A stretch of 36,743 nt of DNA, from positions 111,233 to 147,975 of the forward strand of contig JAUVZL010000001.1 in NCBI GenBank assembly GCA_030602565.1, written 5' to 3'. The stretch is from Candidatus Stahliibacteriota bacterium (GTDB lineage Bacteria; Hydrothermota; Tepidihabitantia; SM23-42). The notes beneath the pieces were generated by a model that did not search any database, was not told the origin of the DNA, and saw only the letters and a list, made by a program, of their open reading frames with translations. The translations under genes and the position numbers were made by a program. Shown piece by piece: positions 5,041-26,304 of this stretch; the stretch's first letter is position 1, and each line of letters begins with the position of its first letter.

Positions 5041-5068
5041 ATTATATAAAAATAGAAGTATATTGCAA
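5041..5068 (-). promoter_or_regulatory. Promoter of sucC-like gene, probably leaderless
   Basis: Minus strand: TTGCAA (5068-5063), 16-base spacer, TATAAT (5046-5041), then eight bases to the ATG at 5032. No Shine-Dalgarno site fits between, so the transcript would begin at or within a base or two of the start codon. Confidence 0.6.
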
Positions 5069-5103
5069 TAGGCAGTGACCACGGTGTGGTATTGCAGGTA
5101 TTG

Positions 5104-5613
5104 CTACTTTGATCTTTCTATATCAAAATCTATAAAATCGCAGTGATGTATAATTACGGCTTCATTAGAACGCTTCACCTTCTCGCCTTCAACTGAATGG
5201 GCTGCTACGATGTGAGCAACTTCAATAGGCAAACCAACATCAAGGGTTAAACCATACCCTGCTACTGGATGCCGAATAAGTTTACCAAAACTGGACTTAG
5301 TGTATTTTTTACCAAGCTTTTTGTATTCAAGTAATTTTCCGACGTCATGGACCAAGGCACCAGCAATAACGTAGTCTAGTTTAACATCCTGGCGTTTACC
5401 TGCTACTGCTATCGCCATGCGCGTGACAGTCCTGGTATGTTCAACGAGTGTTTTCTTTGTTTTAATGAGCAGAGTAAATGGTATCTTGTCAATCTTCTGC
5501 CACTTGCCTCTTTTCACAGCTAATAGCCATACTGCGATAACGCCTTTACGAAGTGATTTACTTGTTATCTTCTTTACTTCAGGGAAGAGCGCTATTATAT
5601 ATTTTTTATCCAT
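5104..5613 (-). CDS. HD-domain phosphohydrolase
   Basis: 169 residues forming a compact HD domain. Likely metal ligands are visible in order: His59 (VEHTRT), His89-Asp90 (LVHDVGK), His115 (RHPVAGYG), His139 (AAHS) and Asp159 (HHCDF). No extra domain, membrane segment or signal peptide is present. Stand-alone HD proteins of this type are metal-dependent phosphohydrolases acting on nucleotides or related phosphoesters; the substrate cannot be read from sequence. It starts at an ATG preceded by AGGTG and follows the small hydro-lyase subunit by about 54 bases, so probably belongs to the same transcript. Confidence 0.8.
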   Translation of the reverse strand: MDKKYIIALFPEVKKITSKSLRKGVIAVWLLAVKRGKWQKIDKIPFTLLIKTKKTLVEHTRTVTRMAIAVAGKRQDVKLDYVIAGALVHDVGKLLEYKKLGKKYTKSSFGKLIRHPVAGYGLTLDVGLPIEVAHIVAAHSVEGEKVKRSNEAVIIHHCDFIDFDIERSK

Positions 5614-5667
5614 TATTCACCTATATAACCATATAACCAATTATCTATTCTCTCTTGTTTAACCATC

Positions 5668-6159
5668 TTAGTCTTTCTTCTTCAGATAGTCAAGTAAACC
5701 GCCAGCCTTCATGATTTCCATTTCAAGCGGTGCAATAGCGATGCCTTGATAAACCTTATTCTGTGATAGATTGCTGATTCTACCGTTTTCAATATTAACC
5801 TCAAGTCTATCCCCCTGTTTAATCTCCCCGGTTCCATCAAAAAGTATAATCGGCAAACCAGTATTAACCGCATTTCTATGGAATATCCTGGCAAAAGACC
5901 TGGCGATCACAAGAGAAACACCGATACCATGGATCGCTACAATCGCATGCTCACGTGAAGAACCGCAGCCAAAATTCTTGCCGGCTACGACAATATCACC
6001 TGGTTCCACATTGTTCATGAATTCTTCCCCGCCAGGCGCGCCTTCCATAGCATGGAGCGTCATTTCCTGCTTGTCAGTAATGGGCAAATACTTACCCGGA
6101 TATATCTGGTCAGTATCAATATCATCTCCAAAGCACCATACCTTTCCTTTGATTATCAC
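5668..6159 (-). CDS. leuD: 3-isopropylmalate/homoaconitate-type hydro-lyase, small subunit
   Basis: 163 residues from a GTG at 6159, preceded by GAGGTG and giving the family start (MIIKGKVWCFGDDIDTDQI). An upstream in-frame GTG at 6171 would add four residues and lies inside the large-subunit gene. The swivelling-domain signature GKNFGCGSSREHA is intact. The protein completes the active site of the adjacent [4Fe-4S] large subunit. The substrate-recognition loop reads YLPI (residues 24-27), unlike YLRT reported for homoaconitases or the YLV-type of isopropylmalate isomerases, so the substrate is uncertain. The symbol reflects family, not proven leucine synthesis. It begins two bases after the large-subunit stop, so translation is probably coupled. 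Confidence 0.88.
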   Translation of the reverse strand: MIIKGKVWCFGDDIDTDQIYPGKYLPITDKQEMTLHAMEGAPGGEEFMNNVEPGDIVVAGKNFGCGSSREHAIVAIHGIGVSLVIARSFARIFHRNAVNTGLPIILFDGTGEIKQGDRLEVNIENGRISNLSQNKVYQGIAIAPLEMEIMKAGGLLDYLKKKD

Positions 6160-6160
6160 A

Positions 6161-7405
6161 CTACACCTCACGTGGATCAGTAATGACTCCAGTCAAAGCA
6201 GTCGCGGCAGCAGTTGCTGGCGACGCAAGAAAAACTTTAGCACCTTTACCGAGTTTGCCTACGAAATTACGATTTGAGGTAGAAACCATTACCTCTCCAG
6301 GTGCAAGAATACCAGGGTGTCCAGTCGTGCACAGTGCACAACCCGGGTTGGTCACCACTGCGCCAGCATTTATAAAAATGTCGTACAAGCCTTGTTTTAG
6401 TGATTTTTTTGCCACCTCCATGGTCGTTGGTACAACAATAAGACGTATACCAGGTTTAATTTTATTCCCTTTTAATATTTGTGCCGCGATATTTAAATCC
6501 TCAAATCTACCATTAGTACAAGAACCTATGAACACCTGGTCAACCTTGGTCTTGGCAATATCTTTAACATCCTTAACATTATCTGGTGAATGGGGACAAG
6601 CAATCTGTGGTTGTAGATCATCGACTTTGAATTCATATATTTCCTCGTATGCGGCATCTGAGTCAGGCCCGATTGTTTCAACCTTTTCTTCAGTCCTCGC
6701 TTTGATATAATCCAAAATCTCATCGTTAGGTTGTATAAAACCGATATCTCCAGACATCTCGGTTACCATACTTGCCATTGTTATACGTTCAGCAAGATTC
6801 AGGTGGTCGATTGTCGGGCCAGAGAATTCGACTGCCCGGTTGAGCGCACCATCAGTCTTCAATGTCTTGAGTAGAAAAAGTATTATATCTTTTGCCGTAA
6901 CAAGCTTCTTCAACACACCAGTAACTTCAATCTTGATCGTTGGCGGTACACGAAAATATAACTCGCCCTTGTACATTGCGCCGGCAATGTCGGTTGTGCC
7001 CATACCAAACCCTGCAGCGCCGACCCCACCAAGTAGGTTCATATGACTATCAGTACCAACAATAATATCCCATGGTTTTGCCAAACCGCTTTCAAAAAGA
7101 ATATGCTGACCAACACCTGTATCGATATCAAAGAGTTTCACACCTTGACGAGCAGCAAATTCCCTCAAGAATTTTTGATTTACCGCGACTTTCTCGTCAC
7201 GAGCTGGGATATGAAGGTCAAAAGTTATCGCTACTTTCCCCTTATCAAATACCGGCTGTTCACCAAACTTGTTCTGATATTCCTGGATAACATTTGGTCC
7301 GCCAAAATCGCGCATCGCTACAAGATTCAATTTCGCCCAGATATATTCACCTGGTTTAACATCTCTACCTGCCGCGCGTGCAAAAATCTTCTCAATGATC
7401 GTCAT
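6161..7405 (-). CDS. leuC: 3-isopropylmalate/homoaconitate-type hydro-lyase, large subunit
   Basis: 414 residues, matching the archaeal-type LeuC/HacA group (about 420) rather than the longer enterobacterial LeuC. The iron-sulfur ligands are Cys296 (GSCTNGR), Cys356 and Cys359 (NPGCALC). VGTDSHMN and the glycine-rich GFGMGTTDIAG segment are also typical. With the small subunit it should move a hydroxyl group by dehydration and rehydration on isopropylmalate, homocitrate, citrate or a similar acid. Upstream lies a relic of the dehydrogenase that normally follows this step. The start has a weak AAGG ribosome binding site. Family certain, substrate not. Confidence 0.88.
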   Translation of the reverse strand: MTIIEKIFARAAGRDVKPGEYIWAKLNLVAMRDFGGPNVIQEYQNKFGEQPVFDKGKVAITFDLHIPARDEKVAVNQKFLREFAARQGVKLFDIDTGVGQHILFESGLAKPWDIIVGTDSHMNLLGGVGAAGFGMGTTDIAGAMYKGELYFRVPPTIKIEVTGVLKKLVTAKDIILFLLKTLKTDGALNRAVEFSGPTIDHLNLAERITMASMVTEMSGDIGFIQPNDEILDYIKARTEEKVETIGPDSDAAYEEIYEFKVDDLQPQIACPHSPDNVKDVKDIAKTKVDQVFIGSCTNGRFEDLNIAAQILKGNKIKPGIRLIVVPTTMEVAKKSLKQGLYDIFINAGAVVTNPGCALCTTGHPGILAPGEVMVSTSNRNFVGKLGKGAKVFLASPATAAATALTGVITDPREV

Positions 7406-7625
7406 TTTAACCTTGGGTTAAATCGATTACCCCGTACGATTAGCATCTTACGAGGCAGGCGGAGATTAACAGAAAGATTATCCCGATTTTTCATATAAAA
7501 TTATTAATTACGAAGAATCGAGGATCCCGCAAAGCGGGACAGTGATTTTTCTATTTACCATGTCTTCAGCGCAGCGTGTCTTCAACAGAGTGTGTTCTCC
7601 ATTACTCCGACATTCTGATACACCG
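7406..7625. other. Gene-free interval with GC hairpin
   Basis: Between the dehydrogenase remnant and the LeuC-type gene I see no coding frame. A hairpin CCCGC-AAA-GCGGG lies near 7528-7540. The segment also carries the GCCTGCCTC-like and GGAGTAATGGAG-like short motifs seen in other intergenic regions of the window. Confidence 0.55.
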
Positions 7626-7718
7626 TTACATAATTCTGTCAAGGACGATTCTTGTTGCGTCGAGAACATCCTTTCCTATACCACCACCAGGTAACCAGGC
7701 AATCTTATATTTTGCCAT
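7626..7718 (-). pseudogene. Remnant N-terminus of an isocitrate/isopropylmalate dehydrogenase
   Basis: A 30-codon frame from an ATG at 7718 to TAA at 7626 reads MAKYKIAWLPGGGIGKDV and then an ATRIVLD helix. This matches the N-terminal strand, PGDGIG loop and first helix of the decarboxylating isocitrate/3-isopropylmalate dehydrogenase family (normally 330-400 residues). The invariant Asp of PGDGIG is Gly. After the stop, no frame continues the family; the sequence becomes repeat-like intergenic DNA with a CCCGC/GCGGG hairpin. The position, between the acyltransferase gene and the LeuC-type gene, is where a functional dehydrogenase would be expected, so this looks like a deletion remnant. A short functional peptide is an unlikely alternative. 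Confidence 0.7.
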
Positions 7719-7747
7719 TTTTATTCCAGCATCCTAACCCATCGACC

Positions 7748-8863
7748 TTATACTATCCCCTCATATATGCGGTATTTTTTGTAGAGCTTACCACCCATTT
7801 TTGTAACCGCATTGTTGGTTGAGTGGTTATCCTCAAGTACCCATGATAGCTCACCTGCATTGTAGCCGAGCTGCTGAGCGGCTCGAAAAGACTCAAGGAA
7901 AAGTAGTGACTCTAAACCCATTTTTCTGTACTGCTTACGCACGCCCATGATCATCATACGCGCGTCTTTTATCTTCTTTTTGTAATACAGGAACTTCAGC
8001 ATCTCAATAGGGCCCAATCGTCCGTTCAGCTTTTTCAGTACCGTATTGTAATTCGGCACAGCAAACGAAATAGCTACTGGAACATCGTCTATTTCTATGA
8101 TCGGCACTAACTCTGGGATAATCAATGATTTCATATGCTCGGCAAAGACACTTATTTCCTCATCAGTCATCGGTACAAACCCCCAATTACGGCTCCACGC
8201 ATCATTATAGATCTCTTGTATTTTCTTTACTTCATTCTCGAAGTCAGCAACATTAATCGGTCTGACCTTCATATCATGTACCCGTCTCCGTACAATAGAA
8301 CAAATTCTTTCCAGATATTCAAAGGGTGCGTCTTTCATATCACAGTAATACGCAAAGAGATCTTTGGTTTTCTCAAGCCCACATTTTTTTATCAAATCAT
8401 CGTAATACTCATAATTGTAAGGCATCATTATAAAAGGTGTTGTATAAAAGCCCTCAATCAGAACTCCGCATTCATCATTAGTCGATGGGTTCAAAGGACC
8501 GATGTATTTGGTGACATTTTTGTCACTAAGATATTCCTTTACATGTTCAAAAAGGGCTTTTCCTGCATCTTCATCATCATCACACTCAAAGAACCCAAAA
8601 TATGCTGTCTTTTCATCCCAGAATTCCATGAAGTTATAGTCAATAATCGCGCATATCCTCCCGGACAACTGTTTATCCCGGTAGACAAGAAACAATTCCT
8701 TTTCAGCATGGTTCCAGAACGGATTCTTTGTTTTATCAAAGAGATTACGTACCTCATGTTTAAATGGAGGCACCCAATAGCGATTTTTTTTATACAATTT
8801 AAAAGGAAGGTTTATAAAATCCTTCAGTTCTTTTTCGGTTTTTACAGGAACTACAGTAATCAT
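7748..8863 (-). CDS. Large GNAT-fold N-acyltransferase coupled to the serine-palmitoyltransferase-like gene
   Basis: 371 residues, about twice a simple GNAT domain. The C-terminal third has the acyl-CoA-binding pattern MGVRKQYRKMGLESLLFLES followed by an Asn-rich LEDNHSTNNAVTKMGGKLY segment, typical of GNAT motifs A and B. The N-terminal half is probably a second, degenerate GNAT-like unit. Its ATG overlaps the stop of the upstream gene (TAATG), so the two are translationally coupled. Large GNAT-fold proteins have been implicated as bacterial ceramide synthases beside serine palmitoyltransferases; the neighbour makes N-acylation of a long-chain base a reasonable inference, but orthology is not shown. 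No signal peptide or membrane segment. Confidence 0.72.
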   Translation of the reverse strand: MITVVPVKTEKELKDFINLPFKLYKKNRYWVPPFKHEVRNLFDKTKNPFWNHAEKELFLVYRDKQLSGRICAIIDYNFMEFWDEKTAYFGFFECDDDEDAGKALFEHVKEYLSDKNVTKYIGPLNPSTNDECGVLIEGFYTTPFIMMPYNYEYYDDLIKKCGLEKTKDLFAYYCDMKDAPFEYLERICSIVRRRVHDMKVRPINVADFENEVKKIQEIYNDAWSRNWGFVPMTDEEISVFAEHMKSLIIPELVPIIEIDDVPVAISFAVPNYNTVLKKLNGRLGPIEMLKFLYYKKKIKDARMMIMGVRKQYRKMGLESLLFLESFRAAQQLGYNAGELSWVLEDNHSTNNAVTKMGGKLYKKYRIYEGIV

Positions 8864-10050
8864 TATTTCTTTAACCCAAACTCTTCAGCACAGTGTGCAA
8901 AAGCCTCTAAGATAATTTCAATGTCTTCATCCGTATGTGTAGACATATAGCTGGTTCGAATCAAAGCGCGGCCGGGCGGCGTCGCCGGAGAAATGACCGG
9001 GTTTGCAAAAATACCGCTCGCAATCAGTTTTTTCCAAAAGGCAAAGCAGTGTTCATCTTCACCAATGATAATCGGGATGACCGGCGTCGCACTATCACCA
9101 GTATCAAGCCCGATATCTCTAAAACCTTTTAACATACGTCGGGCTACCGCCCACAATCTTTTGCGGCGTTCAGGTTCGGTTTTGATGATATTCAAAGCCA
9201 TCTGGGCACTCGCAACTGAAGCAGGAATCATGGACGCCGAAAATATTAATGCCCGAGCACGATGCTTAATATGGGTGATAACGTCTTTATCACCGACAAC
9301 AAAACCGCCCAGTGATGCAAATGCCTTACTAAACGTCCCCATTAGTAAGTCAACTCTGTCGAGCACACCAAAGTGCTCACATGTACCTTGACCTTTTTCG
9401 CCGTGTACACCGACTCCGTGTGCATCGTCAACGAGTAAGCGGCACTTATATTTTTCTTTTAAACGGACGATTTCAGGGAGGTTAGCCAAATCACCTTCCA
9501 TGCTGAATACGCCATCAACAATTATCAATTTACCGCGGTCTTCAGGTAAGGTCTTTAATATCCGCTCTAAATCTTCCATATCATTGTGCCGATACTTCTT
9601 AACATCGGCAAATGATAAACGGCAGCCATCAATGATAGAAGCATGGTCCTGACGATCAATGATCAAGAGATCGTCTTTGCCGCCAAGTGCTGAAATAATA
9701 CCCAAATTCGTTTGAAAGCCGGTGGAAAAAATAATCGCCCCGTCTTTTTCATAGAACTCAGCCAGGTCTTTTTCAAGTTTGACGTGAATATCGAGTGTCC
9801 CATTGAGAAACCTTGAACCAGAACATGTGGAGCCATATTTTTCCACGGCCTTGATCGCTGCTTCCTTCATGCGCGGATCAGCAGCCAGACCAAGGTATCC
9901 ATTAGACCCGATCATTATGAATTCTTTACCATCTATTTTGACGCGGTGGTCTTGGGCAGATTCAATCGGTGTGAAGTAAGGATAAATCCCAAATTCCTGT
10001 GCTTTTTTCACTTGTTCAACGGTGAAAGCACACTTTTTGAATAAATCCAT
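8863..10050 (-). CDS. spt: PLP-dependent alpha-oxoamine synthase, serine-palmitoyltransferase-like
   Basis: 395 residues, full length for the family (KBL, BioF, HemA, SPT). The Schiff-base lysine is Lys242 in MGTFSKAFASLGG; the cofactor-binding LVDDAHGVG is near 206-214. Many segments recall bacterial serine palmitoyltransferase from sphingolipid producers: YPYF near residue 23, GSRFLNGTLDIH near 78-89, FSTGFQTNLG near 108-117, DHASIIDG near 135-142 and VDGVFSMEGD near 178-187. The expected reaction is condensation of serine (or another amino acid) with a fatty acyl-CoA or acyl-ACP to give a 3-keto long-chain base. 2-amino-3-ketobutyrate CoA ligase is the main alternative. It leads an operon with the GNAT gene and has a probably leaderless promoter. 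Confidence 0.82.
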   Translation of the reverse strand: MDLFKKCAFTVEQVKKAQEFGIYPYFTPIESAQDHRVKIDGKEFIMIGSNGYLGLAADPRMKEAAIKAVEKYGSTCSGSRFLNGTLDIHVKLEKDLAEFYEKDGAIIFSTGFQTNLGIISALGGKDDLLIIDRQDHASIIDGCRLSFADVKKYRHNDMEDLERILKTLPEDRGKLIIVDGVFSMEGDLANLPEIVRLKEKYKCRLLVDDAHGVGVHGEKGQGTCEHFGVLDRVDLLMGTFSKAFASLGGFVVGDKDVITHIKHRARALIFSASMIPASVASAQMALNIIKTEPERRKRLWAVARRMLKGFRDIGLDTGDSATPVIPIIIGEDEHCFAFWKKLIASGIFANPVISPATPPGRALIRTSYMSTHTDEDIEIILEAFAHCAEEFGLKK

Positions 10051-10055
10051 TGATT

Positions 10056-10083
10056 AGTATAGTTACTTTTTGTCTGAAGTCAA
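10056..10083 (-). promoter_or_regulatory. Promoter of the spt-like gene, probably leaderless
   Basis: Minus strand: TTGACT (10083-10078), 16-base spacer, TATACT (10061-10056), then five bases to the ATG at 10050. The -35 box includes the TGA stop codon of purB. There is no room for a Shine-Dalgarno site. Confidence 0.62.
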
Positions 10084-11348
10084 CCTATGTTCCTCAAGAA
10101 CCATTTCAGGTCAAAAATCTTTGCGATCTCTTTTTCATTAAGGTATTGGCACACTTTTTTGTCCTTAAGAACTGTCTTTTTCAGATCTTCTTTTGCCGCA
10201 ATAGTCTTGAAAGACAAACGCTGTACAGTGTTATAAGCCTCTCCCCTGCTCATACCATGTTGTACGAGTTTGTTCATTAAGTTCTGGGAGGCGTAAACAC
10301 CGTAGCTTGCCTCAATATTCTCCATCATGCGTTTTGGATACACATTCAGGTTCTCAAGTACCCAGCGTGTTTTTAAAGTAAGGTAATGTGCCAAGTGAAA
10401 TGCATCCGGGAAAATAACCCGTTCGACTGAAGAATTAGTAATATCCCGTTCATGCCAGAGCGTGATATTCTCGTAAGCAGGGATTAGATAGCTACGCAGA
10501 ATCCGCACCAAACCGCTTATGCGCTCACAGGTAATCGGGTTTTTCTTATGCGGCATGGCAGAAGAACCCTTTTGCCCACGAGTAAACGGTTCAAGCACCT
10601 CACCTATTTCAGTACGGGAAAGGTTCCGGATTTCAGTGGCAATCCTTTCCAAAGCGCATGCATACAATGCAATAATAGCAATCAGCAAAGCGAAACGATC
10701 CCTTGGTAGAACTTGAGTTGACACGGGTTCTGGTTTCAAACCTAACTTCCTCATAACTCTTTTCTCAAGCGCTGGTGATAGCATTGTATAGGTACCAACT
10801 GCACCAGACAGTTTACCAAAGGACATTTCTTTTCTAGCAAGGATAAGACGCTGATACGCCCGCTTGATTTCTTCATACCAGGAAGCGACTTTGTAACCGA
10901 ATGTAATAGGCTGAGCAAAAACACCATGTGTTCTGCCCATCTGGGGCGTTTTTTTGTATTTCAAGGAAAGCCATTTCAACACGGTCAGGAGTTTCTTCAC
11001 ATCACCCAGCAAAACATCAATGGCTTCAAGGAGCATCAACACAAAGGCGGTATCAACAAGATCGTACGAGGTCAGTCCAAAGTGCAACCATTTACCAACT
11101 CGCTTGTCGAGTTTTTCCCGGGCCGCTTCTAAAAAAGCAATAACGTCATGGTTAGTGACTTTTTCTATGGTTCGAACTCGTTCTGGTTTCACCTTTATCT
11201 TGGCTAGTTTGCTACTGAGTCCACGCGGAATCACCCCATATTTTTCTTCAATCCCAGCAACAATTCGTTCGACAAAAAGCCATTTCTTTAATTTGTATTC
11301 ATCATTGAATATTCTTGCCATCTCTTTTGTCTGATAACGTTCTATCAT
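10080..11348 (-). CDS. purB: Adenylosuccinate lyase
   Basis: 422 residues, normal for PurB. The fumarase/aspartase-superfamily signature is clear (GSSAMPHKKNP), with the earlier HFGLTSYDLVDTA and MGRTHGVFAQP segments carrying active-site residues. The enzyme removes fumarate from SAICAR and from adenylosuccinate in purine synthesis, in the cytosol. AAGGAG lies 12 bases before the ATG. The gene starts about 20 bases after the protease gene on the same strand, so it is probably co-transcribed with it. Confidence 0.95.
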   Translation of the reverse strand: MIERYQTKEMARIFNDEYKLKKWLFVERIVAGIEEKYGVIPRGLSSKLAKIKVKPERVRTIEKVTNHDVIAFLEAAREKLDKRVGKWLHFGLTSYDLVDTAFVLMLLEAIDVLLGDVKKLLTVLKWLSLKYKKTPQMGRTHGVFAQPITFGYKVASWYEEIKRAYQRLILARKEMSFGKLSGAVGTYTMLSPALEKRVMRKLGLKPEPVSTQVLPRDRFALLIAIIALYACALERIATEIRNLSRTEIGEVLEPFTRGQKGSSAMPHKKNPITCERISGLVRILRSYLIPAYENITLWHERDITNSSVERVIFPDAFHLAHYLTLKTRWVLENLNVYPKRMMENIEASYGVYASQNLMNKLVQHGMSRGEAYNTVQRLSFKTIAAKEDLKKTVLKDKKVCQYLNEKEIAKIFDLKWFLRNIG

Positions 11349-11367
11349 ATTATTATTGCTCCTTGCA

Positions 11368-12813: not shown

Positions 12814-12853
12814 GTTCAGTCCTTTCTTGCTATCATAGACCCGGCAGGCGTAA

Positions 12854-13576
12854 TCAGTACTTCACTTCCACAAGAAATAACCCTTGTGGAGGTGCGAAAA
12901 AGAGATCTCTTATCTTACCGTCTAAAACATCTTGTGTCTGCTCTGGCTTATAATGACCACGACCCACATCATGCAGAAAACCGACTATGCCGCGCACCAT
13001 CTTTCTGAGGAAGCGATCACCCTTAATTTGTATTATAATACGTGAATTATGTTCTGTCAAGCTAATGCTGTGGAGAATGCAGAATGTATTATCCTTATCA
13101 TTTTCAGCAGAGAAGTATTTGAAATTGCGTTGGCCAACCAAACAACCCTTTGCCTTTTGCATTTTGGATAAATCGAGTGGGTGCCCCACATACCAATTGT
13201 AGCGCAGCTTGAATGGCGATGGTTGAAGAACTATATTATATTCATAGACCTTATATTGTGCAGAATATCTGCCATGAAAATCGTCGTTCACCTTAAATAT
13301 CTGCTTAATATATATATCGTTGCCAGTCAACGAATTGAGTGCCTTGCGGATCTTGGCTAATTCAAGAGAAGAGGATGTGTGGAAATTTGCAACCTGACCA
13401 AACGCATGGACCCCTTGGTCAGTTCTCCCGGCTCCGATTATCCTGATGTTCTCGCTGGTTAGTTGCTTTAAAGCATGCTCGACCTCACCCTGGACAGTCC
13501 GTTCATTGGGCTGGTACTGCCACCCGCAGAAATCAGTCCCGTCGTATTCAATAACCATCTTTATATTCTTCATCAT
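12854..13576 (-). CDS. truA: tRNA pseudouridine(38-40) synthase
   Basis: 240 residues, typical for bacterial TruA. The catalytic Asp is Asp53 in GAGRTDQGVHAFGQ, and the N-terminal strand with YDGTDFCGWQ is characteristic. The enzyme converts uridines 38-40 of the tRNA anticodon arm to pseudouridine. AGGTG precedes the ATG at 13576; a second ATG three bases downstream could also serve. The gene sits just downstream of the repeat-rich interval and upstream of the protease gene on the same strand. Confidence 0.95.
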   Translation of the reverse strand: MMKNIKMVIEYDGTDFCGWQYQPNERTVQGEVEHALKQLTSENIRIIGAGRTDQGVHAFGQVANFHTSSSLELAKIRKALNSLTGNDIYIKQIFKVNDDFHGRYSAQYKVYEYNIVLQPSPFKLRYNWYVGHPLDLSKMQKAKGCLVGQRNFKYFSAENDKDNTFCILHSISLTEHNSRIIIQIKGDRFLRKMVRGIVGFLHDVGRGHYKPEQTQDVLDGKIRDLFFAPPQGLFLVEVKY

Positions 13577-13597
13577 TCACCTGACGCCCTACTCCTT

Positions 13598-13658
13598 TTT
13601 GAATCCCAAGGGGATTGGAAGAGAGCACTACGTGTTTGAATCCCAAGGGGATTGGAAG
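13598..13658. repeat. Two copies of a 24-bp palindromic repeat, period 37
   Basis: Identical 24-mers at 13598-13621 and 13635-13658 (core AATCCCAAGGGGATT) are separated by 13 bases. Each can fold as a hairpin (AATCCC/GGGATT). Spacing is too short for a CRISPR array. Confidence 0.75.
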
Positions 13659-14025: not shown

Positions 14026-14087
14026 AGCGCTCTACTCTCTACTCTCTGCGCTCTATTCTCCGATACTCCGTTACCCGGTTACCCAAA

Positions 14088-16857: not shown

Positions 16858-16922
16858 TTCACCTCCTTATTTGAGATAATGGTTATTTACAAAACAAATT
16901 CTCTTAAACCCCATAAACTATC

Positions 16923-17999: not shown

Positions 18000-18033
18000 A
18001 GAGCCTCCTTTAAATTAATCATAGAGCTTGTAC

Positions 18034-19755
18034 CTAAAATGCCGTAGTTTCCCTCATTAATTCATCAACAGTCGTAACCCCTTGTTTTATCTTTTCCATC
18101 CCATCCTCGCGCAGCGTTGCCATACCTTCTTTGACAGCTTGTCTAGCAAGCTCGTCTGAAGAAGCACCTTTCAGTATCATCTGTCTTAGTTCCGGAGATA
18201 TCGGCATTACTTCATAAAGACCAACTCTGCCTTTATACCCTGTCTGGTTGCAGTGACTGCATCCCTTTCCCTTATAGACTATGCCATCAGGAAAAGTACC
18301 TTCAGGTATACCAGCGTCTTCAAGGAGCTTTTCGCTCACCTTAATCTTCTCTTTACACTTCGGACAAATTCTTCTTACCAGACGTTGTGCTTGGATAAGA
18401 ACCAGAGCACTCGACACCAGATATCGTTTTATACCGATATCGACCAATCGGTGAACTGTTGTCGGTGCATCATTGGTATGAATCGTCGAAAAGACCAGGT
18501 GCCCGGTTAGCGCAGCTCTTATGGCGATTTCCGCTGTTTCATTATCACGGATTTCACCGATGAGTATAATATTCGGCGACTGACGCAAAAAAGCACGCAA
18601 TGCACTGGCAAAAGTTAAACCAATCTCTTCATGGACTTGAATTTGATTAATGCCGTGCAAATTATACTCGACCGGATCTTCAACCGTCATTATCTGGCGC
18701 TTAGGTTTGTTTAACCGTGCAAGTGTAGAATACAGAGTGGTTGTTTTACCGCTGCCAGTTGGGCCGGTTACAAGAACTATGCCGTAAGGGCTCTCAATCG
18801 CCTTCAAAAATTTCTTTAAAGCTGCTGGAGCAAAACCAAGTTTCGAGAGGTCGAGCATCAAAGAACTCCGATCCAATATTCGCATAACGATTTTTTCGCC
18901 GTACAGAGTCGGGATTACTGAAACACGTAAGTCAATCATCTTATCGCCGACCTGAATATTTATACGACCGTCCTGACATAGCCTATGTTCAGCGATATTC
19001 ATCTTCGCCATAAGCTTCAACCTGGTAATAATACCAGCTTTTAGATTTATGGGCGGCGACTGTTCTTCTCGAAGCACGCCATCGATTCTAAAACGAACCC
19101 TGACCTCCTTTTCATAAGGTTCAATATGAATATCTGAAGCAAGTCTATTTACGGCATCGGCAATATAGAAATTAACCAACCTTATAACTGGTCCGCCTTC
19201 AGCATCAGCTCTTAGTTTGTTCTCCTCTATTTCTTCTTGGAATTCAGTTTCGAGAAGTTCCATGTCCTCAATACCCAGTTCCTTGGCACCATCAGTGGTA
19301 GTCTCCGCGGTCACTTCAGCAATACCTTTTTCCATTGTGTAGTAGCGATCCAGTGCTTCCCTGATGCTCGATTCAGCAGCCAAAACAGGGTTTATTTCCA
19401 TGGACGTAATGAAACGCAAATCTTCAATCGCACTTATGTCAGTCGGGTCAACCATTGCCACGGTCAGGTATCTTCCTTTTCGGTCAATAGGCAGCACTTC
19501 ATAATGGTACACTTTTTCCGCCGGGATCATCTCGAGAACTTCTTTTTCAGGGATAATATAATCGAGGTCAACAACCTCCATTTTATAAAGGTTGCTCAAT
19601 TGCGCAAGCAACTTACTTTCCGGGATCATCTCAAGACGGTTCAAAACACTGACCAAACGCTGTCCAGTTTCGCGCCGCTCCTGCATAGCCTCGCGTAACT
19701 GCTCCTCACTTATTAGACCACTATCTACTAAATATGAAGCAAGTCTTTCTTCCAT
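18034..19755 (-). CDS. pilB: Type IV pilus/type II secretion assembly ATPase, copy 2 of a tandem pair
   Basis: 573 residues. An N-terminal MshEN-type domain (about 1-150) precedes the RecA-like ATPase with Walker A GPTGSGKT (331-338), Asp box VEDPVEY and Walker B IILIGEIRD. A C-terminal zinc finger uses CPKC and CSHC. This is the extension ATPase fold that drives pilin polymerisation. The ATG overlaps the stop of the preceding paralogue by one base. It lies directly upstream of pilT, so it is the better candidate for the true PilB. The usual RLPQDGR motif reads RLCQDGR. Confidence 0.92.
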   Translation of the reverse strand: MEERLASYLVDSGLISEEQLREAMQERRETGQRLVSVLNRLEMIPESKLLAQLSNLYKMEVVDLDYIIPEKEVLEMIPAEKVYHYEVLPIDRKGRYLTVAMVDPTDISAIEDLRFITSMEINPVLAAESSIREALDRYYTMEKGIAEVTAETTTDGAKELGIEDMELLETEFQEEIEENKLRADAEGGPVIRLVNFYIADAVNRLASDIHIEPYEKEVRVRFRIDGVLREEQSPPINLKAGIITRLKLMAKMNIAEHRLCQDGRINIQVGDKMIDLRVSVIPTLYGEKIVMRILDRSSLMLDLSKLGFAPAALKKFLKAIESPYGIVLVTGPTGSGKTTTLYSTLARLNKPKRQIMTVEDPVEYNLHGINQIQVHEEIGLTFASALRAFLRQSPNIILIGEIRDNETAEIAIRAALTGHLVFSTIHTNDAPTTVHRLVDIGIKRYLVSSALVLIQAQRLVRRICPKCKEKIKVSEKLLEDAGIPEGTFPDGIVYKGKGCSHCNQTGYKGRVGLYEVMPISPELRQMILKGASSDELARQAVKEGMATLREDGMEKIKQGVTTVDELMRETTAF

Positions 19756-21467
19756 TAAACCACCTTTGTTTCACGGATCACTTCCTCAACCGATGTTAGA
19801 CCGTGTTCAAGCTTGTGTATTGCTGAATCATGAAGGGTCTCCATACCTTGTTCAACCGCTGTTTTTTCAAGTTCTTCACTCGTTGCACCCTTTAGGATCA
19901 AATCACGTATCTTGGCGGTAATCATCATGTTTTCAAAAATTCCAATCCTTCCTTTATAGCCGGTGCCCCGACAATGCTCACACCCTTCACCATGAACCAA
20001 AGGATAATCTATCTTTCCGGGTTCAAGGCCAGCATCCATGAGTACTTCGTCTGGATATTTAACTTCTTGTCGGCATTTGCCACAGACCTTTCTCAGCAAT
20101 CTCTGTGACGAGATTGCCAACACCGTAGATGCGATCAAAAAGGATTCAACATTCATATTTGTCAATCTGATTACCGTTGCCCCAGCTGAATTTGTATGGA
20201 CCGTTGACAAGACAAGGTGTCCAGTCAATGATGCACGGATTGATATTTGAGCAGTTTCCAAATCACGAATTTCACCAACCATTATGATGTTTGGGTCCTG
20301 TCGAAGATATGAACGCAATGCACTAGCAAAGGTTAAACCAATCTTTTCGTGAACTTGCAGCTGATTAATCCCATGCAGCGAGTATTCAATTGGATCTTCA
20401 GCCGTAATTATGTTGAGGCCAGGATCATTCAGTTCAGTCAATGCAGAATACAAGGTTGTCGTCTTACCAGAACCAGTTGGCCCAGTAACAAGGACAATAC
20501 CATAAGGTGTCTGAATCGCACTGCGGAAGGTCTTTAGCGTTTTCTCCTCAAAACCTAAGAGATCAAGGTTCAGCTGTATCGTTGAACGGTCAAGGATACG
20601 TAAGGCAATCTTTTCGCCAAAAAGCGTCGGTACGGTCGAAACACGAATGTCAATGATCTTGTTGTGAATTCTTGCCTTAATTCGACCGTCTTGCGGTAAT
20701 CTCTTCTCTTCGACTTTCAGTTTTCCCATCACTTTTATAACCGTCGCCAAAGCACGGTTCATCCGTTTTGGCGGTTTCAAAATCTCGTGGAGTATGCCAT
20801 CAATACGATAGCGTATCCTCATATCATTTTCGTATGGCTCAATATGTACATCCGACACATTCATGTCAACTGCGTCAGTAATGATCTTGCTGACAAGCTT
20901 GAGGGCTGGTCCACTATCACGGTCATCCTGAACAGATGATAAATCTTCCTCAACCGCCTTGACCTCTTCTGTGCCATCAATAACTTTGACATTTGCATCA
21001 CCAGCATCGGCCATCTCTATCTCGTACATAACATCAGATAACATTTTCTGAACATTATAGTGGTCTTGCACTACCTTTAGTAAAGCATCTTCAGCAGCAA
21101 CAACTGCATCCACCTCAAAGCCTGTCGCAAATTGGATATCCTCAATCGCCGCCACATCGCCAGGGTTAATCATAGCGACGGTGAGGGTACGTCCGAAGCG
21201 TGAGACCGGTACGATAAGATATTTCCCGGCGAGGTCGCTGGGGACTAACTTTAACAATGATTCATCAATTTCTATGTTTCTAAGATCAACTGACTTAACA
21301 CCATAGTGTTTTGAAAGTGCTACCAACATCTCTTCTTCTTTTACATAGCCGAGATTTATCAGCGTAGTTCCAAGTCTAGTCCCGTCTTTCTTCCGAACTT
21401 CTAAAGCTTGAGCAAGCATATCTTCAGAAATTGTACCCTGTTTCAGTAATAATTCGCCTAATTTCAT
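19755..21467 (-). CDS. pilB: Type IV pilus/type II secretion assembly ATPase, copy 1 of a tandem pair
   Basis: 570 residues with the same layout as the next gene: MshEN-like N-terminus, RecA fold with GPTGSGKT, VGEIRD and TVHTNS, and the four-cysteine zinc finger (CGKC, CEHC). The two proteins are clearly paralogous but well diverged, and differ most in the linker near residues 150-185. It opens the pilus operon from a promoter whose -10 box ends 10 bases or fewer before the ATG, with no Shine-Dalgarno site. It could serve a separate pseudopilus or a mixed hexamer; the sequence does not decide. Confidence 0.9.
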   Translation of the reverse strand: MKLGELLLKQGTISEDMLAQALEVRKKDGTRLGTTLINLGYVKEEEMLVALSKHYGVKSVDLRNIEIDESLLKLVPSDLAGKYLIVPVSRFGRTLTVAMINPGDVAAIEDIQFATGFEVDAVVAAEDALLKVVQDHYNVQKMLSDVMYEIEMADAGDANVKVIDGTEEVKAVEEDLSSVQDDRDSGPALKLVSKIITDAVDMNVSDVHIEPYENDMRIRYRIDGILHEILKPPKRMNRALATVIKVMGKLKVEEKRLPQDGRIKARIHNKIIDIRVSTVPTLFGEKIALRILDRSTIQLNLDLLGFEEKTLKTFRSAIQTPYGIVLVTGPTGSGKTTTLYSALTELNDPGLNIITAEDPIEYSLHGINQLQVHEKIGLTFASALRSYLRQDPNIIMVGEIRDLETAQISIRASLTGHLVLSTVHTNSAGATVIRLTNMNVESFLIASTVLAISSQRLLRKVCGKCRQEVKYPDEVLMDAGLEPGKIDYPLVHGEGCEHCRGTGYKGRIGIFENMMITAKIRDLILKGATSEELEKTAVEQGMETLHDSAIHKLEHGLTSVEEVIRETKVV

Positions 21468-21477
21468 AGTTTATTAT

Positions 21478-21505
21478 AATATATTGAAATATTTTAACTT
21501 GTCAA
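21478..21505 (-). promoter_or_regulatory. Promoter of the pilus operon, very short or no leader
   Basis: Minus strand: TTGACA (21505-21500), 16-base spacer, TATATT (21483-21478), ten bases to the ATG at 21467. An overlapping TATAAT (21478-21473) is closer to the ATG but 21 bases from the -35. Either way the leader is only a few bases or absent. Confidence 0.6.
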
Positions 21506-21548
21506 GGCTTTATTTGCACTATTATTGTTTTAAACACTACTTGCTTGC

Positions 21549-21576
21549 TTGACACTTTTTCATATATCATTATAAT
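21549..21576 (+). promoter_or_regulatory. Promoter of the YfiM-like gene, probably leaderless
   Basis: TTGACA (21549-21554), 16-base spacer, TATAAT (21571-21576), then eight bases to the ATG at 21585. The intervening TCCCCGGT offers no Shine-Dalgarno site. It lies back to back with the pilus-operon promoter. Confidence 0.7.
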
Positions 21577-21584
21577 TCCCCGGT

Positions 21585-21977
21585 ATGAATAAATGTATTG
21601 CACTTGTTTTGGTCTCAATCTTTTTCCTGATTGCTCAAAAAATTACCCCTCTATCTGGGAAAACACGTTCAGCTGGATACAATCTAACACCGGAAATACT
21701 TGCGGTATTGCAACATAATCCTGATCCGTGGTTTTCTGAAGACAAGTTCTACCACCTCACAGCATGTGCAGTAATTCCGTGCTTGACCTTTCATTTATAT
21801 ACCAACTTTGGAAACGGCGATGTAACCAAGGCAAAGGTGTATTCAGTATCAGCAACCGCTCTTGTCGGTATTGGCAAAGAAATATGTGACAAAAAGAAAA
21901 AGAACCATTTCTCATGGAAAGACTTGTTCTGGGATAGCATTGGTCTGGCAATAGGTTATTTTTTATTTATCGATTGA
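21585..21977 (+). CDS. YfiM/DUF2279-like envelope protein
   Basis: 130 residues. The N-terminal hydrophobic segment (about 3-20) is a signal peptide or anchor. The rest has the pattern I associate with YfiM/DUF2279: WFSEDKFYHLTA, then GIGKEICDKK and FSWKDLFWDSIGLAIGYF with a final hydrophobic segment. The family is small, envelope-associated and without a defined biochemical role. It is transcribed alone and converges on the beta-lactamase-fold gene with only four bases between stops. Confidence 0.72.
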   Translation: MNKCIALVLVSIFFLIAQKITPLSGKTRSAGYNLTPEILAVLQHNPDPWFSEDKFYHLTACAVIPCLTFHLYTNFGNGDVTKAKVYSVSATALVGIGKEICDKKKKNHFSWKDLFWDSIGLAIGYFLFID

Positions 21978-21981
21978 TTTC

Positions 21982-23037
21982 TTAAGCCATGGTTTTTGCA
22001 GTAATTTCGACAAGCCGCTGCCTTACTTCTGGCATAAGGTCAGCGCGCACTACCGGGTGCACCGCATTAGTAAGAAATACAACAATGCTATCCTTTATCG
22101 GATCAACAAGACACATAGTTCCGGTAAAACCAGAGTGATAGAAAGACCTGCTTGAAACGAAATTAGGGAACGGGTTTATTATCCAACCGAGTCCTCGTTT
22201 CTCCTTACCGTTCGTTTGAACCCGTGTCATCATCTTTACCGTTTTTTTACTGACTATACCACCTGCTGTATACACACGCACGAGTTTTGCCAATTCCCGA
22301 GCAGTCGAGAAAAGTCCCGCATTACCTGATACACCATTGAAACCGTAGAATGAATTCCCGTCATGAACTTCACCCTTGAGCACATAGTTGCGCCACTTTA
22401 TTGCTTTGGTCTTACCATGCTGCGCCGCGGTCTGCTCCTCATATTTATTGCCGAATTCAGTTGCCGCAACATTTTTCTTCTTGATCGGGCCAAACATTGT
22501 ATTGCTCAACCCCAAAGGTCTAAAGATGTATTCTTTACAGAATCTATCAAGGCGCAGATTTGTTACTTTTTCTACAATCATGCCTAAGAGTATGTAACCA
22601 AGACAAGAATAAAGAACCCCTTTGTTCTTACTTGCTACACTTGCTAAATACTGCAGTCGCTCTTGTTGAGGCAACAGATAGAGCGGAAACCAAGCAGGTA
22701 ACCCGGCAGTATGGGTAAGAAGTTGCTTGATAGTCTTCTGACCTGTTGCACAAGATGCGCTCATCGGCAAAAATGTCCTCACCCGATCGTTTAATCTCAG
22801 TTGTTTTTTCTCATAAAGGAACATTATCGACAGGGCGGTGGCTAAAGGCTTGGTTATTGATGCAAGATCGAAAATAGTGTTCTTGTTAATATTTACTTTG
22901 CCTGGAATCAACTGTGCAAAACCACGGGCTTCAAAAAATAGAGTTTTTTTACTGGTACCAACCCAGCACACAATACCAGGTATTTTCTTCTCTGTAATGC
23001 AGGCGGTGAGGTACCTATCTAATTGTTGGAAAGACAC
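21982..23037 (-). CDS. Serine beta-lactamase-fold hydrolase in the PG-salvage operon
   Basis: 351 residues with class-C-like motifs: nucleophile Ser60 in SITK (60-63), Tyr142 in YSC (142-144) and HSG at 300-302. The HDGN and NAGLFSTA segments recall the YbbE/AmpH/esterase subgroup rather than true beta-lactamases. Such proteins act as DD-peptidases, amidases or esterases. No signal peptide is visible, so it is predicted cytosolic unless exported otherwise. It starts at a GTG and overlaps the end of the kinase gene by 19 bases. The ybbC-ybbE pairing of Bacillus has the same two families, supporting a peptidoglycan-turnover role. Confidence 0.82.
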   Translation of the reverse strand: MSFQQLDRYLTACITEKKIPGIVCWVGTSKKTLFFEARGFAQLIPGKVNINKNTIFDLASITKPLATALSIMFLYEKKQLRLNDRVRTFLPMSASCATGQKTIKQLLTHTAGLPAWFPLYLLPQQERLQYLASVASKNKGVLYSCLGYILLGMIVEKVTNLRLDRFCKEYIFRPLGLSNTMFGPIKKKNVAATEFGNKYEEQTAAQHGKTKAIKWRNYVLKGEVHDGNSFYGFNGVSGNAGLFSTARELAKLVRVYTAGGIVSKKTVKMMTRVQTNGKEKRGLGWIINPFPNFVSSRSFYHSGFTGTMCLVDPIKDSIVVFLTNAVHPVVRADLMPEVRQRLVEITAKTMA

Positions 23038-23954
23038 GCTTCACTAACTTGCGCACTCATCACGCAATCATTGAGTTCTTTGTACTCAGTTTTTTCCAAA
23101 CCTGCTCGGAGTAATTCCAAACCCCTTGGGATGTATTCTTTGAAACGAACTTTGTCTTTGTTCAACGACAGATTGGCAAATGCACCGAGGGCTTGTAAGT
23201 TTCTCTGCAGAGCAGTCAATGCATAAGCGTACAAAAACTCTCGCTTCTTGAATTGGATGTGTTTTTTCTTGAGACACTCAAGGTAATAGTCGATTAGTTT
23301 TTTCTCTATTTTTGGAGTAATATTTACATAACTGTCCCTTAACAGAGCAGCCAAGTCATAGGTGAGTGGACCTATTCGAGCTGACTGATAATCAATGATC
23401 TTGGCCTTGCGCTCTTTTATATAGATATTCTGGGATTGGTAATCCCGATGCATGAGGAAATTGCTCCATGGTTCTACAGCTTTTAGTAGTTCCTTAGCGA
23501 GTTTCTCAAAGTCATCGTTGAGTTTCTCTATTTTCCGCCTTGAGATTTTGCAGTATTGAGCGAGGAAATGTTTCTTGAAGTACTGCTGCTCCCATTTGAC
23601 ATGTTCGTAATCATAGTAGTCCTCAGTTGGTGCATTATCATAACCATCAACTTGGAATTTCACGAGTTCTTTGATCGCGGTCCGATACTGTAAAATAAGG
23701 CTTCTCTTTTTCTTGGATAATTCGTATAAAGAATTATCTCCCAGATCTTCCATGAGTATGAGATTCAAGTTTTTATCTGACCAGTGTACTTCTGGTACAC
23801 TAATACCCTTGCCAAAAAGATGCTTCTGTATTTTCAAATGATACTGAATGTTCTTATCCCAAACGAGTATATAGGTTTGATTTCCTTTGTTACACCGATA
23901 GTAAATCCGATCCGAACCACCAATGGTTATCTTTTCAATAATTTTGTATTCCAT
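23019..23954 (-). CDS. amgK: AmgK-like sugar kinase (aminoglycoside-phosphotransferase fold)
   Basis: 311 residues. The kinase core is clear: MEDLGDNSLYEL near 68-79, the catalytic loop HRDYQSQN at 169-176 (Asp171) and the metal-binding IDYQSARIGPLTYDLAALLRD from 187. This loop pattern resembles AmgK, the kinase that phosphorylates MurNAc and GlcNAc at C1 in the MurNAc salvage route. Its direct neighbour is a MurU-like nucleotidyltransferase, which would use that product. A good GGGAG site precedes the ATG. A choline/aminoglycoside kinase of other specificity is possible; operon context favours AmgK. Confidence 0.8.
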   Translation of the reverse strand: MEYKIIEKITIGGSDRIYYRCNKGNQTYILVWDKNIQYHLKIQKHLFGKGISVPEVHWSDKNLNLILMEDLGDNSLYELSKKKRSLILQYRTAIKELVKFQVDGYDNAPTEDYYDYEHVKWEQQYFKKHFLAQYCKISRRKIEKLNDDFEKLAKELLKAVEPWSNFLMHRDYQSQNIYIKERKAKIIDYQSARIGPLTYDLAALLRDSYVNITPKIEKKLIDYYLECLKKKHIQFKKREFLYAYALTALQRNLQALGAFANLSLNKDKVRFKEYIPRGLELLRAGLEKTEYKELNDCVMSAQVSEACLSNN

Positions 23955-23965
23955 TTCTCTCCCGC

Positions 23966-24862
23966 TTAATGCTTAATCTCAATACAGAACATGTCAGACA
24001 ATAGGCAATTCATGTATTCACCATCTTGAATTGCACTGTTGCCAAGAACGACCGTATTGGTTAATGCCACCTGAGCAGATATTGTGCAATTCGGGCCAAC
24101 ACTAACAAAACCATCGAGTGATGTAGTTTTAACCTGGCTTGTCGGGTCTATGTAAAAAGATGAATCAAATCCATGACCACCTACGACAACTTTGTCAATA
24201 AGTAAGTCATAGTGTACCTGCCAATATGTATCTGGTGAGTTGATGTTGTACCAGTTCATCTCCTTGGGCACGCCCAGAAGGTATTCGCCGTTTTCAAGCA
24301 TCCGGGTCCACACCTCGACAATATTAAATGTCTCTTTTTTAGGTAAGTAGGAAAAAATGCGCTCCGAAAACACTGCAATACCGGCAAAATCATAGAACGT
24401 ATCATCGCTGTTCCTGGTAATTTCCTTTATTCTGTGCTCATTGTCTATACCAATAATATTAGCTCCATCATTATTGAGCAAAACAATCGTTGCCGCAGGT
24501 TTGCGCGTCAGGTGTAACTCTACAACTTCAGCGAGATCAATATCAGTCAATACATCGCAGGAGTAAAAAATAAAGTCACCCCGAATAAAATCCTTGAAAT
24601 TTACCAAAGCTCCACCAGTTCCTTTTAAATTCGGTTCAGTTACCATATACAAATTCTCTGAAGACTTTTCCAAATATTCTCTGATTACCCCTGCTTTATG
24701 GAAAAGGTTTATGCCGATTTGCTTTATACCGATATTAAAAAGCCGTGCAATATTGTAATCTATCAAGCGAAAATCAACGATCCGTAGCAGAGCTTTTGGT
24801 ATATGCTCAGTTATTGGTTTCATTCTTTCTCCTAAACCAGCAGCGATCAAAACAGCATTCAT
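23966..24862 (-). CDS. murU: MurU-like sugar-1-phosphate nucleotidyltransferase
   Basis: 298 residues. The N-terminal nucleotide-binding motif is AAGLGERMKPITEHIPKALL, followed by GTGGAL and the metal-binding FYSCDVLTDID. MurU makes UDP-MurNAc from MurNAc-1-phosphate, bypassing de novo synthesis. Known MurU proteins are about 225 residues; this one has an extra C-terminal region (from about 225) with a repeating pattern that suggests a left-handed beta-helix as in other sugar nucleotidyltransferases. A mannose- or glucose-1-phosphate enzyme is the alternative. GGAG precedes the ATG. It lies between the NamZ and AmgK-like genes. Confidence 0.78.
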   Translation of the reverse strand: MNAVLIAAGLGERMKPITEHIPKALLRIVDFRLIDYNIARLFNIGIKQIGINLFHKAGVIREYLEKSSENLYMVTEPNLKGTGGALVNFKDFIRGDFIFYSCDVLTDIDLAEVVELHLTRKPAATIVLLNNDGANIIGIDNEHRIKEITRNSDDTFYDFAGIAVFSERIFSYLPKKETFNIVEVWTRMLENGEYLLGVPKEMNWYNINSPDTYWQVHYDLLIDKVVVGGHGFDSSFYIDPTSQVKTTSLDGFVSVGPNCTISAQVALTNTVVLGNSAIQDGEYMNCLLSDMFCIEIKH

Positions 24863-24884
24863 TCCGTTACTCCATTACGCCGTC

Positions 24885-26048
24885 TCATCTGTAAAGCAGG
24901 TATTTTCTTCGTTTTCTCTTGAACCGATATAACTCCATTTGCCATCGTTTCTTTATCGAGTTAATAGAGTGGTTCTTGTCCAGAGCTTGTTTTATCCAGG
25001 CATTACCAGCCAATATGTCAAAGGGTAACCTGCGCGTTTCATGCTCGTATGGCGGTCTGCGCCACCTGAATTTACCGGGATATAGACTCTTTATCGCGTG
25101 TATTATTTCCAATCCAGCTGAAAACGGATTAAAACGTCGCATATTGGTCACGTATATCTGTGCACCACCACATAACCGGTTCTTGTATTTGCTAAAGGTC
25201 GGAATAAAAAATGCTGGACGGAACATAACACCAGGTATCTTTTTCTTATTCAGTGATTTTACAAAAGAAAAAGGACCTATCCAAGGTGCTCCAAAAATCT
25301 CAAAAGGTCTGGTCGTTCCTCGACCTTCGGATACATTAGTACCTTCAAGCAAACACATACCAGGATATACCAAAGCAGTTGAAAAACTGGGCATATTCGG
25401 TGTTGATACAGTCCAGTACAACCCAGTATTTTCAAAGCAGAATCCCCGTTCCCAACCTTTCATTTTCACAACCTGAATATCCGCACCAAGGTGGAGTTCA
25501 TCATTGACCAAGTTACAGAGTTCGCCAATCGTCATACCGTGCCGGACCGGAACCGGGTATAGACCGACAAAAGAGACATATTCTGGTTCAAGAACAGGTC
25601 CTTGGACAGTCTTACCATTTAAAGGGTTAGGTCGGTCCAGAATAACGATTTTCTTGCCCAGACGTGCCACCTGCTCAATCAATAGAATCGCTGACCAGAT
25701 AAACGTGTAATAGCGGGTTCCGATATCTATCAGGTCAATGACCAGGATATCTATCTTTTTCAGTATCGCCTTATCCGGCACAAGACTCTTACTATACAAG
25801 GAATAAACCCTGACTTTTCTCTCCTTGTCATAGTAGTTTTGCGAACGCACCTGATCTTGCAGAGCACTGAAAAAACCATGTTCTGGTGCAAAAACTGCAT
25901 TAAGTTTGAAAGCCTTTTGTTTGATGAATATAGCGACGGTTGGTTCAAGAACAGAATTACAAGATGCGATATTGGTGCACAAGCCGACATTACTGCCCTT
26001 GAGCAGGTCAAAACCTCTGCTCATGAGGGTATTTATACCAAGTTGCAC
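24885..26048 (-). CDS. namZ: NamZ-type exo-beta-N-acetylmuramidase (DUF1343/YbbC)
   Basis: 387 residues when started at a GTG at 26048, giving MQLGINTLMSRGFDLLKGSN, the usual start of the family's mature domain. A longer frame from 26072 runs into the promoter. Family landmarks are present: FAPEHGFFS, DIGTRYYTF, DRPNPLNGK, VRHGMTIGEL and SEGRGTTRPFEIFGAPW. NamZ removes terminal MurNAc from peptidoglycan fragments. No signal peptide is visible, unlike Bacillus YbbC/NamZ, so this enzyme may act in the cytosol. It leads the operon with MurU-like, AmgK-like and beta-lactamase-fold genes. Confidence 0.88.
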   Translation of the reverse strand: MQLGINTLMSRGFDLLKGSNVGLCTNIASCNSVLEPTVAIFIKQKAFKLNAVFAPEHGFFSALQDQVRSQNYYDKERKVRVYSLYSKSLVPDKAILKKIDILVIDLIDIGTRYYTFIWSAILLIEQVARLGKKIVILDRPNPLNGKTVQGPVLEPEYVSFVGLYPVPVRHGMTIGELCNLVNDELHLGADIQVVKMKGWERGFCFENTGLYWTVSTPNMPSFSTALVYPGMCLLEGTNVSEGRGTTRPFEIFGAPWIGPFSFVKSLNKKKIPGVMFRPAFFIPTFSKYKNRLCGGAQIYVTNMRRFNPFSAGLEIIHAIKSLYPGKFRWRRPPYEHETRRLPFDILAGNAWIKQALDKNHSINSIKKRWQMELYRFKRKRRKYLLYR

Positions 26049-26053
26049 GAGAT

Positions 26054-26082
26054 AGTATAGCACAAAAAACAATCAATGTCAA
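26054..26082 (-). promoter_or_regulatory. Promoter of the PG-salvage operon, leaderless GTG start
   Basis: Minus strand: TTGACA (26082-26077), 17-base spacer, TATACT (26059-26054), then five bases to the GTG at 26048. The expected transcription start coincides with the start codon. Confidence 0.65.
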
Positions 26083-26100
26083 GGAAAAGTGGTGGTCTGA

Positions 26101-26148
26101 TATTACCAAGCAGAAATGTTAACAGTTATTACTAAGCGGAAATGTTAA
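26101..26148. repeat. Two imperfect direct repeats of 22 bp, possible IS21-type end relic
   Basis: Units at 26101-26122 and 26127-26148 match at 20 of 22 positions (TATTAC.AAGC.GAAATGTTAA) with a 26-base period. Repeats of this general form occur at ends of IS21-family elements. No istA or istB gene is nearby, so at most this is a solo end. Confidence 0.5.
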
Positions 26149-26272
26149 TTTTTTGCAATTGCGGAAGAGCGATTTCGTTCTGTTTCTTGGCCTTTTTAGG
26201 TATTTAGGTATTTTTGGATTTTACCCAAGCCCGTTGTAAACAAGCTGGGTTTAGGTATTTGCATTTTCCCCC

Positions 26273-26300
26273 TTGACAAATGCAAATTTTTGATTATAAT
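26273..26300 (+). promoter_or_regulatory. Promoter of the fur-feo block, very short or no leader
   Basis: TTGACA (26273-26278), 16-base spacer, TATAAT (26295-26300). ATG codons follow at 26305 and 26311 with no Shine-Dalgarno site. A Fur-box-like sequence (26306-26320, 10 of 14 matches to the 7-1-7 consensus on the minus strand) overlaps the start codons. Confidence 0.62.
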
Positions 26301-26304
26301 GTAA

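Follow-up and report, generated by a model that had tools for sequence, protein, structure and literature searches.

About a quarter of the operon-leading genes in the candidate division WOR-3 genome analyzed here (approximately 24-33% over three genomes of its class, as estimated at one score threshold) carry a sigma-70-type promoter directly in front of the start codon, and their mRNAs are predicted to begin at or near the first codon. Ordinary leaderless initiation from sigma-70 promoters that are pressed against the start codons is very probably the best explanation for this arrangement. The finding emerged from a stretch of 36,743 nucleotides, referred to as the window (contig C72, positions 111233-147975), which belongs to a genome of 2.74 Mb in 104 contigs with a completeness of about 96%. 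The nearest relatives of the PilT protein encoded in the window were found in candidate division WOR-3 and Stahlbacteria assemblies, with a value of 89% to CP070705.1; in the NCBI taxonomy, candidate division WOR-3 is placed in the phylum Caldifarciminota. Gene-level statistics for the window genome (G000) were drawn from 976 kb, and two further genomes of the same class, G083 and G098, were used for gene-level replication. Gene starts were assigned with a simple, purpose-written hexamer caller, which yielded 88% coding sequence; a codon-only caller yielded 73% and misplaced starts. The promoter scoring matrices were trained exclusively on promoters located well upstream of called starts.

An initial annotation of the window had proposed that six operon-leading genes share TTGACA-like and TATAAT-like boxes with a spacing of 16-17 bp and a start codon 4-10 nt after the -10 box. 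All six box pairs were present, and the 17-bp spacer occurred solely at namZ. On the minus strand, the putative leaderless promoter of sucC (5041..5068) is composed of a weak -35 box, TTGCAA (5063-5068), a 16-bp spacer, and the -10 box TATAAT (5041-5046), followed by 8 nt to the ATG at 5032. For the serine palmitoyltransferase-like gene spt (minus strand, 10056..10083), the boxes are TTGACT (10078-10083) and TATACT (10056-10061) with 16 bp between them and 5 nt to the ATG at 10050. The pilB promoter (minus strand, 21478..21505) contains TTGACA (21500-21505), a 16-bp spacer and TATATT (21478-21483), and its 10 nt to the ATG at 21467 lie outside the 5-8 nt optimum. The promoter of the YfiM-like gene (plus strand, 21549..21576) contains TTGACA (21549-21554), 16 bp and TATAAT (21571-21576), with 8 nt to the ATG at 21585, and the putative leaderless promoter of namZ (minus strand, 26054..26082) contains TTGACA (26077-26082), 17 bp and TATACT (26054-26059), with 5 nt to the GTG at 26048. 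At fur (plus strand, 26273..26300), TTGACA (26273-26278) and TATAAT (26295-26300) are separated by 16 bp, and the distance is 4 nt to the ATG at 26305 and 10 nt to the ATG at 26311, both again outside the optimum. These six genes were not the complete set, and a seventh case had been missed: a candidate leaderless promoter of an unnamed gene (2729-3817) is located on the minus strand at 3824..3851, with a 16-bp spacer and a -10 box 6 nt from the ATG at 3817, and its -35 box overlaps the sucC stop codon.

The assignment as operon leaders was certain for four of the six genes, i.e. for the divergent pairs pilB and YfiM-like gene (117 bp between them) and namZ and fur (232 bp between them). It could not be upheld for sucC and spt, which are not clear leaders and follow a co-directional gene at a distance of 71 bp and 29 bp, respectively; the -35 box of spt overlaps the 3'-end of the upstream gene. 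These two genes thus have their own promoters inside or beside another transcription unit. The leading genes at 7405, 13827, 15551, 33097 and 36015 of the window were also tested and were not leaderless. The anaerobic ribonucleotide reductase gene provides the contrast: it has an ordinary promoter (plus strand, 32963..32990), a leader of approximately 100 nt, a GTG start at 33097 and an SD motif. Between this gene and a NifU-like gene, a second Fur-family regulator is encoded (35245-35709). The window also contains two directly adjoining PilB-type ATPase genes in tandem (18034-21467); both match TIGR02538, the second (18034-19755) is about 47% identical to the first, and the pair stays together in at least most family relatives.

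The distance between the -10 box and the start codon was quantified genome-wide. In a scan without gene calling, ATG codons downstream of exact promoters peaked at 5 nt (14 cases) and 6 nt (9 cases), with about 3 cases at neighboring distances, and one-mismatch promoters yielded 18 cases at 5 nt and 18 at 6 nt. GTG codons also peaked at 5 nt (11 cases), and no peak at 5-6 nt was detected for TTG and CTG in the scan without gene calling. The genome-wide spacing scan suggested in the initial annotation thus revealed a strong enrichment: the pattern TTGAC-N17/18-TANNNT-N5/6-ATG was present at 209 places in the whole genome, compared with 9 for the pattern read backwards. At the gene level, an ATG or GTG preceded by a promoter at 4-8 nt was found for 84 of 342 leading genes, 25 of 143 ambiguous genes, and 9 of 380 internal genes in the 976 kb (leading versus internal, Fisher 1.5e-20). 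When the distance was displaced to -18 to -14 nt as a null, the numbers dropped to one leading, no ambiguous and one internal gene. The result was replicated in G083 (30/127 leading versus 2/181 internal genes) and G098 (29/88 versus 4/203). The distance distribution was bimodal: beyond the peak at 5-6 nt, it fell to a minimum at 12-13 nt and rose again to a broad mode at 14-23 nt, which represents the leadered genes.

Strong promoters are common in this AT-rich genome, with 296 exact TTGACA-N16-18-TATAAT sites, and some of them might lie near start codons by chance. The probability of this explanation is negligible: it is refuted by the sharp peak, the near-empty null windows and the replication in two genomes, and the conservation in orthologues described below also contradicts it. 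The distribution among genes supports the view that leaderless or near-leaderless starts are nearly confined to transcript-leading genes. The earlier proposal of two initiation modes split by operon position therefore held in one direction, but not in the other, as most leading genes are not leaderless. The restriction to leaders also bears on the possibility that the TATAAT-like run is no promoter element but a translational signal, comparable to the A/T-rich initiation regions that lack an SD in Bacteroidetes. The AT-richness of the -10 position and the missing SD motifs at leaderless starts would agree with such a signal, yet internal genes would need it equally and are almost devoid of it, the run goes along with a TTGACW box at a fixed distance of 16 (17) bp, and SD sites are plentiful elsewhere in the genome. 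This explanation was rejected as highly improbable.

The 16-bp spacer between the two boxes is unusual. In the 976 kb, exact TTGACA and TATAAT pairs were found 91 times at 16 bp, 13 times at 17 bp, and zero to two times at every other spacing, and reversed motifs used as a control formed almost no pairs at any spacing. For TTGAC and TATAAT, the numbers at 16 versus 17 bp were 139 versus 20 in the window genome, 46 versus 7 in G083, and 32 versus 6 in G098. Taken over leadered and leaderless sigma-70-type promoters, the 16-bp spacer was favored five- to ninefold over 17 bp in the three class genomes. The usual spacer in E. coli has 17 bp. Because the 16-bp optimum was also found for leadered promoters (103 versus 9 in the training set), it is a trait of the lineage and not a part of leaderlessness.

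The usual bacterial initiator is a pyrimidine followed by a purine. The base before the start codon was a pyrimidine in 41 of the 48 genes with the -10 box at 5 nt, and in 60 of 80 genes with a distance of 5-6 nt, compared with 117 of 257 SD genes (p = 3e-6). The pyrimidine at -1 of the 5-nt genes thus leads to a predicted transcription start about 6 nt past the -10 box. In the favored explanation, the housekeeping sigma-70 holoenzyme would transcribe from TTGACW-16-TATAAT promoters with the -10 box 5-8 nt (up to about 10 nt) from the start codon. RNA polymerase would start about 6 nt past the -10 box, with the A or G of the start codon, or a base 1-5 nt ahead of it, as the first nucleotide; for spt and namZ, the predicted start coincides with the start codon, and the predicted leaders comprise 2-3 nt for sucC and the YfiM-like gene and 3-5 nt for pilB. 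The products would be leaderless or near-leaderless mRNAs, and their 5'-terminal AUG or GUG would initiate translation without SD pairing, presumably via the 70S/IF2 route, which is known for leaderless mRNAs. Both the transcript 5'-ends and the ribosomal route are inferred here. Leadered first genes and the later genes of operons would make use of SD sites or coupling, with a normal anti-SD being kept.

The 3'-end of the 16S rRNA of the window genome reads ...GGATCACCTCCTTTC, and the anti-SD is therefore intact. SD motifs of at least 6 nt were present at 44% of the non-leaderless leaders versus 26% of the internal genes. The claim that internal genes are strongly SD-led was thus correct only in part: the examples named, pilC, pilT, feoA and nifU, have SD matches of 7-8 nt, but nifU itself, located 305 bp from the upstream gene, was scored as a leader. 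Many internal genes have a weak SD, and translational coupling may operate there. The claimed lack of SD motifs at the six window genes was confirmed, and no match of at least 5 nt was found at any of their in-frame starts. The 109 non-internal leaderless genes start with ATG (93 genes) or GTG (16 genes), and 100 of them have no SD match of at least 4 nt at the leaderless start. In the window genome, no gene with a TTG start was found at 4-8 nt from the -10 box, versus 28 TTG leading genes at 12-30 nt.

Conservation of the promoters was analyzed in 23 genomes of the family, among which the identity of the orthologues goes down to about 50-75%. The box pair and its distance from the start persisted across the orthologues, while the surrounding sequence drifted. 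TTGACA and a -10 box at 5-11 nt were kept in 21 of 23 pilB orthologues, and both boxes at 5-8 nt in 19 of 19 spt orthologues. For sucC, 16 of 18 orthologues had the arrangement at 6-9 nt, and the weak -35 box itself was conserved. All six orthologues found for the YfiM-like gene keep boxes and distance. The namZ arrangement was conserved in 16 of 17 orthologues at nearly always exactly 5 nt, although some orthologues start with ATG and others with GTG.

The situation was less uniform for fur, for which about 10 of 19 orthologues were short-leadered. In five relatives, the gene has a leader that contains a Fur-box-like inverted repeat, mostly together with an SD motif. Of the two ATG codons, the second (26311) is conserved better as a start. 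The sequence comparison suggests autoregulation by occlusion together with switching between leadered and leaderless forms of the gene. The inverted repeat (ATGAAAATGAATTGCAATTTCAT) is located directly after the fur -10 box and before the start codon in several relatives, and a half-site-like ATGAAAATGAAA remains at the beginning of the fur ORF in the window (26301-26320). In a same-genus genome (G077), the reading frame of the fur orthologue was reported with one internal TAG.

The five fur relatives, in which the gene starts downstream past the repeat and mostly behind an SD, would be compatible with a general mis-assignment of start codons, i.e. true starts located downstream of a normal leader and an SD motif. 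However, SD motifs of at least 6 nt were found at the alternative starts of 6% of the leaderless-class genes, compared with 5% for shuffled sequences and 43% for the other leading genes, and the orthologues of spt, namZ and pilB conserve their N-termini at the leaderless start. Mis-assignment is thus very unlikely and was rejected as well.

Inheritance of the initiation mode between the three class genomes was evaluated with reciprocal best hits, for which few usable pairs were available. For G000 and G083, four pairs were leaderless in both genomes, 3+3 were discordant and 15 were leaderless in neither (p=0.07); the respective numbers were 5, 0+2 and 8 for G000 and G098 (p=0.007), and 2, 2+2 and 3 for G083 and G098 (p=1).

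The breadth of the pattern was assessed in 141 genomes of the phylum by counting ATG codons at 5-6 nt versus 28-29 nt after TTGAC-N17/18-TANNNT; MAG assemblies may include foreign contigs. In the class of the window genome, 62 of 62 genomes favored 5-6 nt, with a pooled ratio of 4.7 (7859:1671) and a lowest single ratio of 2.2. The 79 genomes of other WOR-3 classes were patchy, with a pooled ratio of 2.0 and values of 0.6-1 in several families; some of these low-ratio families are poor in the TTGAC/TANNNT promoter type altogether, so that a missing pattern does not prove that leaderless genes are lacking there. Three named WOR-3 assemblies yielded 136:33, 82:19 and 141:38. Outside the phylum, eleven genomes were mostly at about 1:1, with one Aminicenantes genome at 41:17.

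Leaderless genes occur widely among bacteria, and their share is above 20% in Actinobacteria and Deinococcus-Thermus (Zheng 2011, PMC3160421). In Deinococcus, the -10 motif next to the ORF has been put to an experimental test (Zhong 2025, PMC12340547). The WOR-3 genes resemble those of Deinococcus-Thermus in having a -10 box directly before the start and no SD, in co-existing with a class of SD genes, and in being conserved between species (PMC12340547, PMC3160421). The fraction there is about 30% of the ORFs, compared with 24-33% of the operon-leading genes estimated here. The WOR-3 system differs in that its -10 boxes are as a rule accompanied by a strong -35 box at 16 bp, and it belongs to a different phylum. 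In Mycobacterium tuberculosis, leaderless genes make up 26% of those with a primary TSS, and a pyrimidine is likewise favored at -1 of the TSSs (Cortes 2013, PMC3898074); there, leaderlessness was established by TSS mapping, whereas in WOR-3 it is inferred from sequence alone. For Sulfolobus, PMC3160421 describes a split in which proximal (first or single) genes are leaderless and distal genes SD-led, and it discusses this split for bacteria. The WOR-3 arrangement is similar to this description, but Sulfolobus promoters are archaeal and most WOR-3 leading genes are not leaderless.

In agreement with the initial annotation, a literature text search retrieved no paper containing both 'WOR-3' and 'leaderless', although subscription journals were mostly outside its coverage and an unseen report is possible; the Deinococcus study (Zhong 2025, PMC12340547) does not mention WOR-3. 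The finding itself is well supported and, as far as this search goes, new for the WOR-3 lineage. The leaderless mode was already known, and no new mechanism is involved.

A random sample of leaderless leaders included serS, hslU, murJ, a glmU-like gene and signal peptidase I, and SD leaders in the sample included enolase, recA, trigger factor and the V-ATPase K subunit. Among the tRNA synthetase genes of M. tuberculosis that have a primary TSS, leaderless ones account for half (PMC3898074), and serS is leaderless in the window genome. The WOR-3 sample, ten genes picked by eye and only a lead, is reminiscent of Mycobacterium, where functions of active growth tend not to be leaderless (PMC3898074). 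We tentatively consider it possible, though rather doubtful, that leaderless versus leadered initiation defines an expression class that is stable, specific to the gene and passed on throughout the WOR-3 class. High-output housekeeping leaders such as enolase, RecA, trigger factor and V-ATPase K would then be SD-led, whereas membrane proteins and enzymes of lower output would be leaderless, with the 16-bp-spacer promoter common to both.

In practice, TTGACW-16-TATAAT followed by a start codon 5-8 nt later predicts start codons and transcript starts in WOR-3 metagenome assemblies, in which SD-trained gene finders may misplace starts. With these results, a largely uncultured phylum, of which the WOR-3 isolate sy37 is in culture (PMC12285271), joins the bacteria with extensive leaderless initiation, which has so far been best documented in Actinobacteria and Deinococcus-Thermus, and this bears on the question of whether leaderless initiation is ancestral or was gained repeatedly. 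If the tentative view of an expression class were true, ribosome selectivity could co-regulate a quarter of the first genes.
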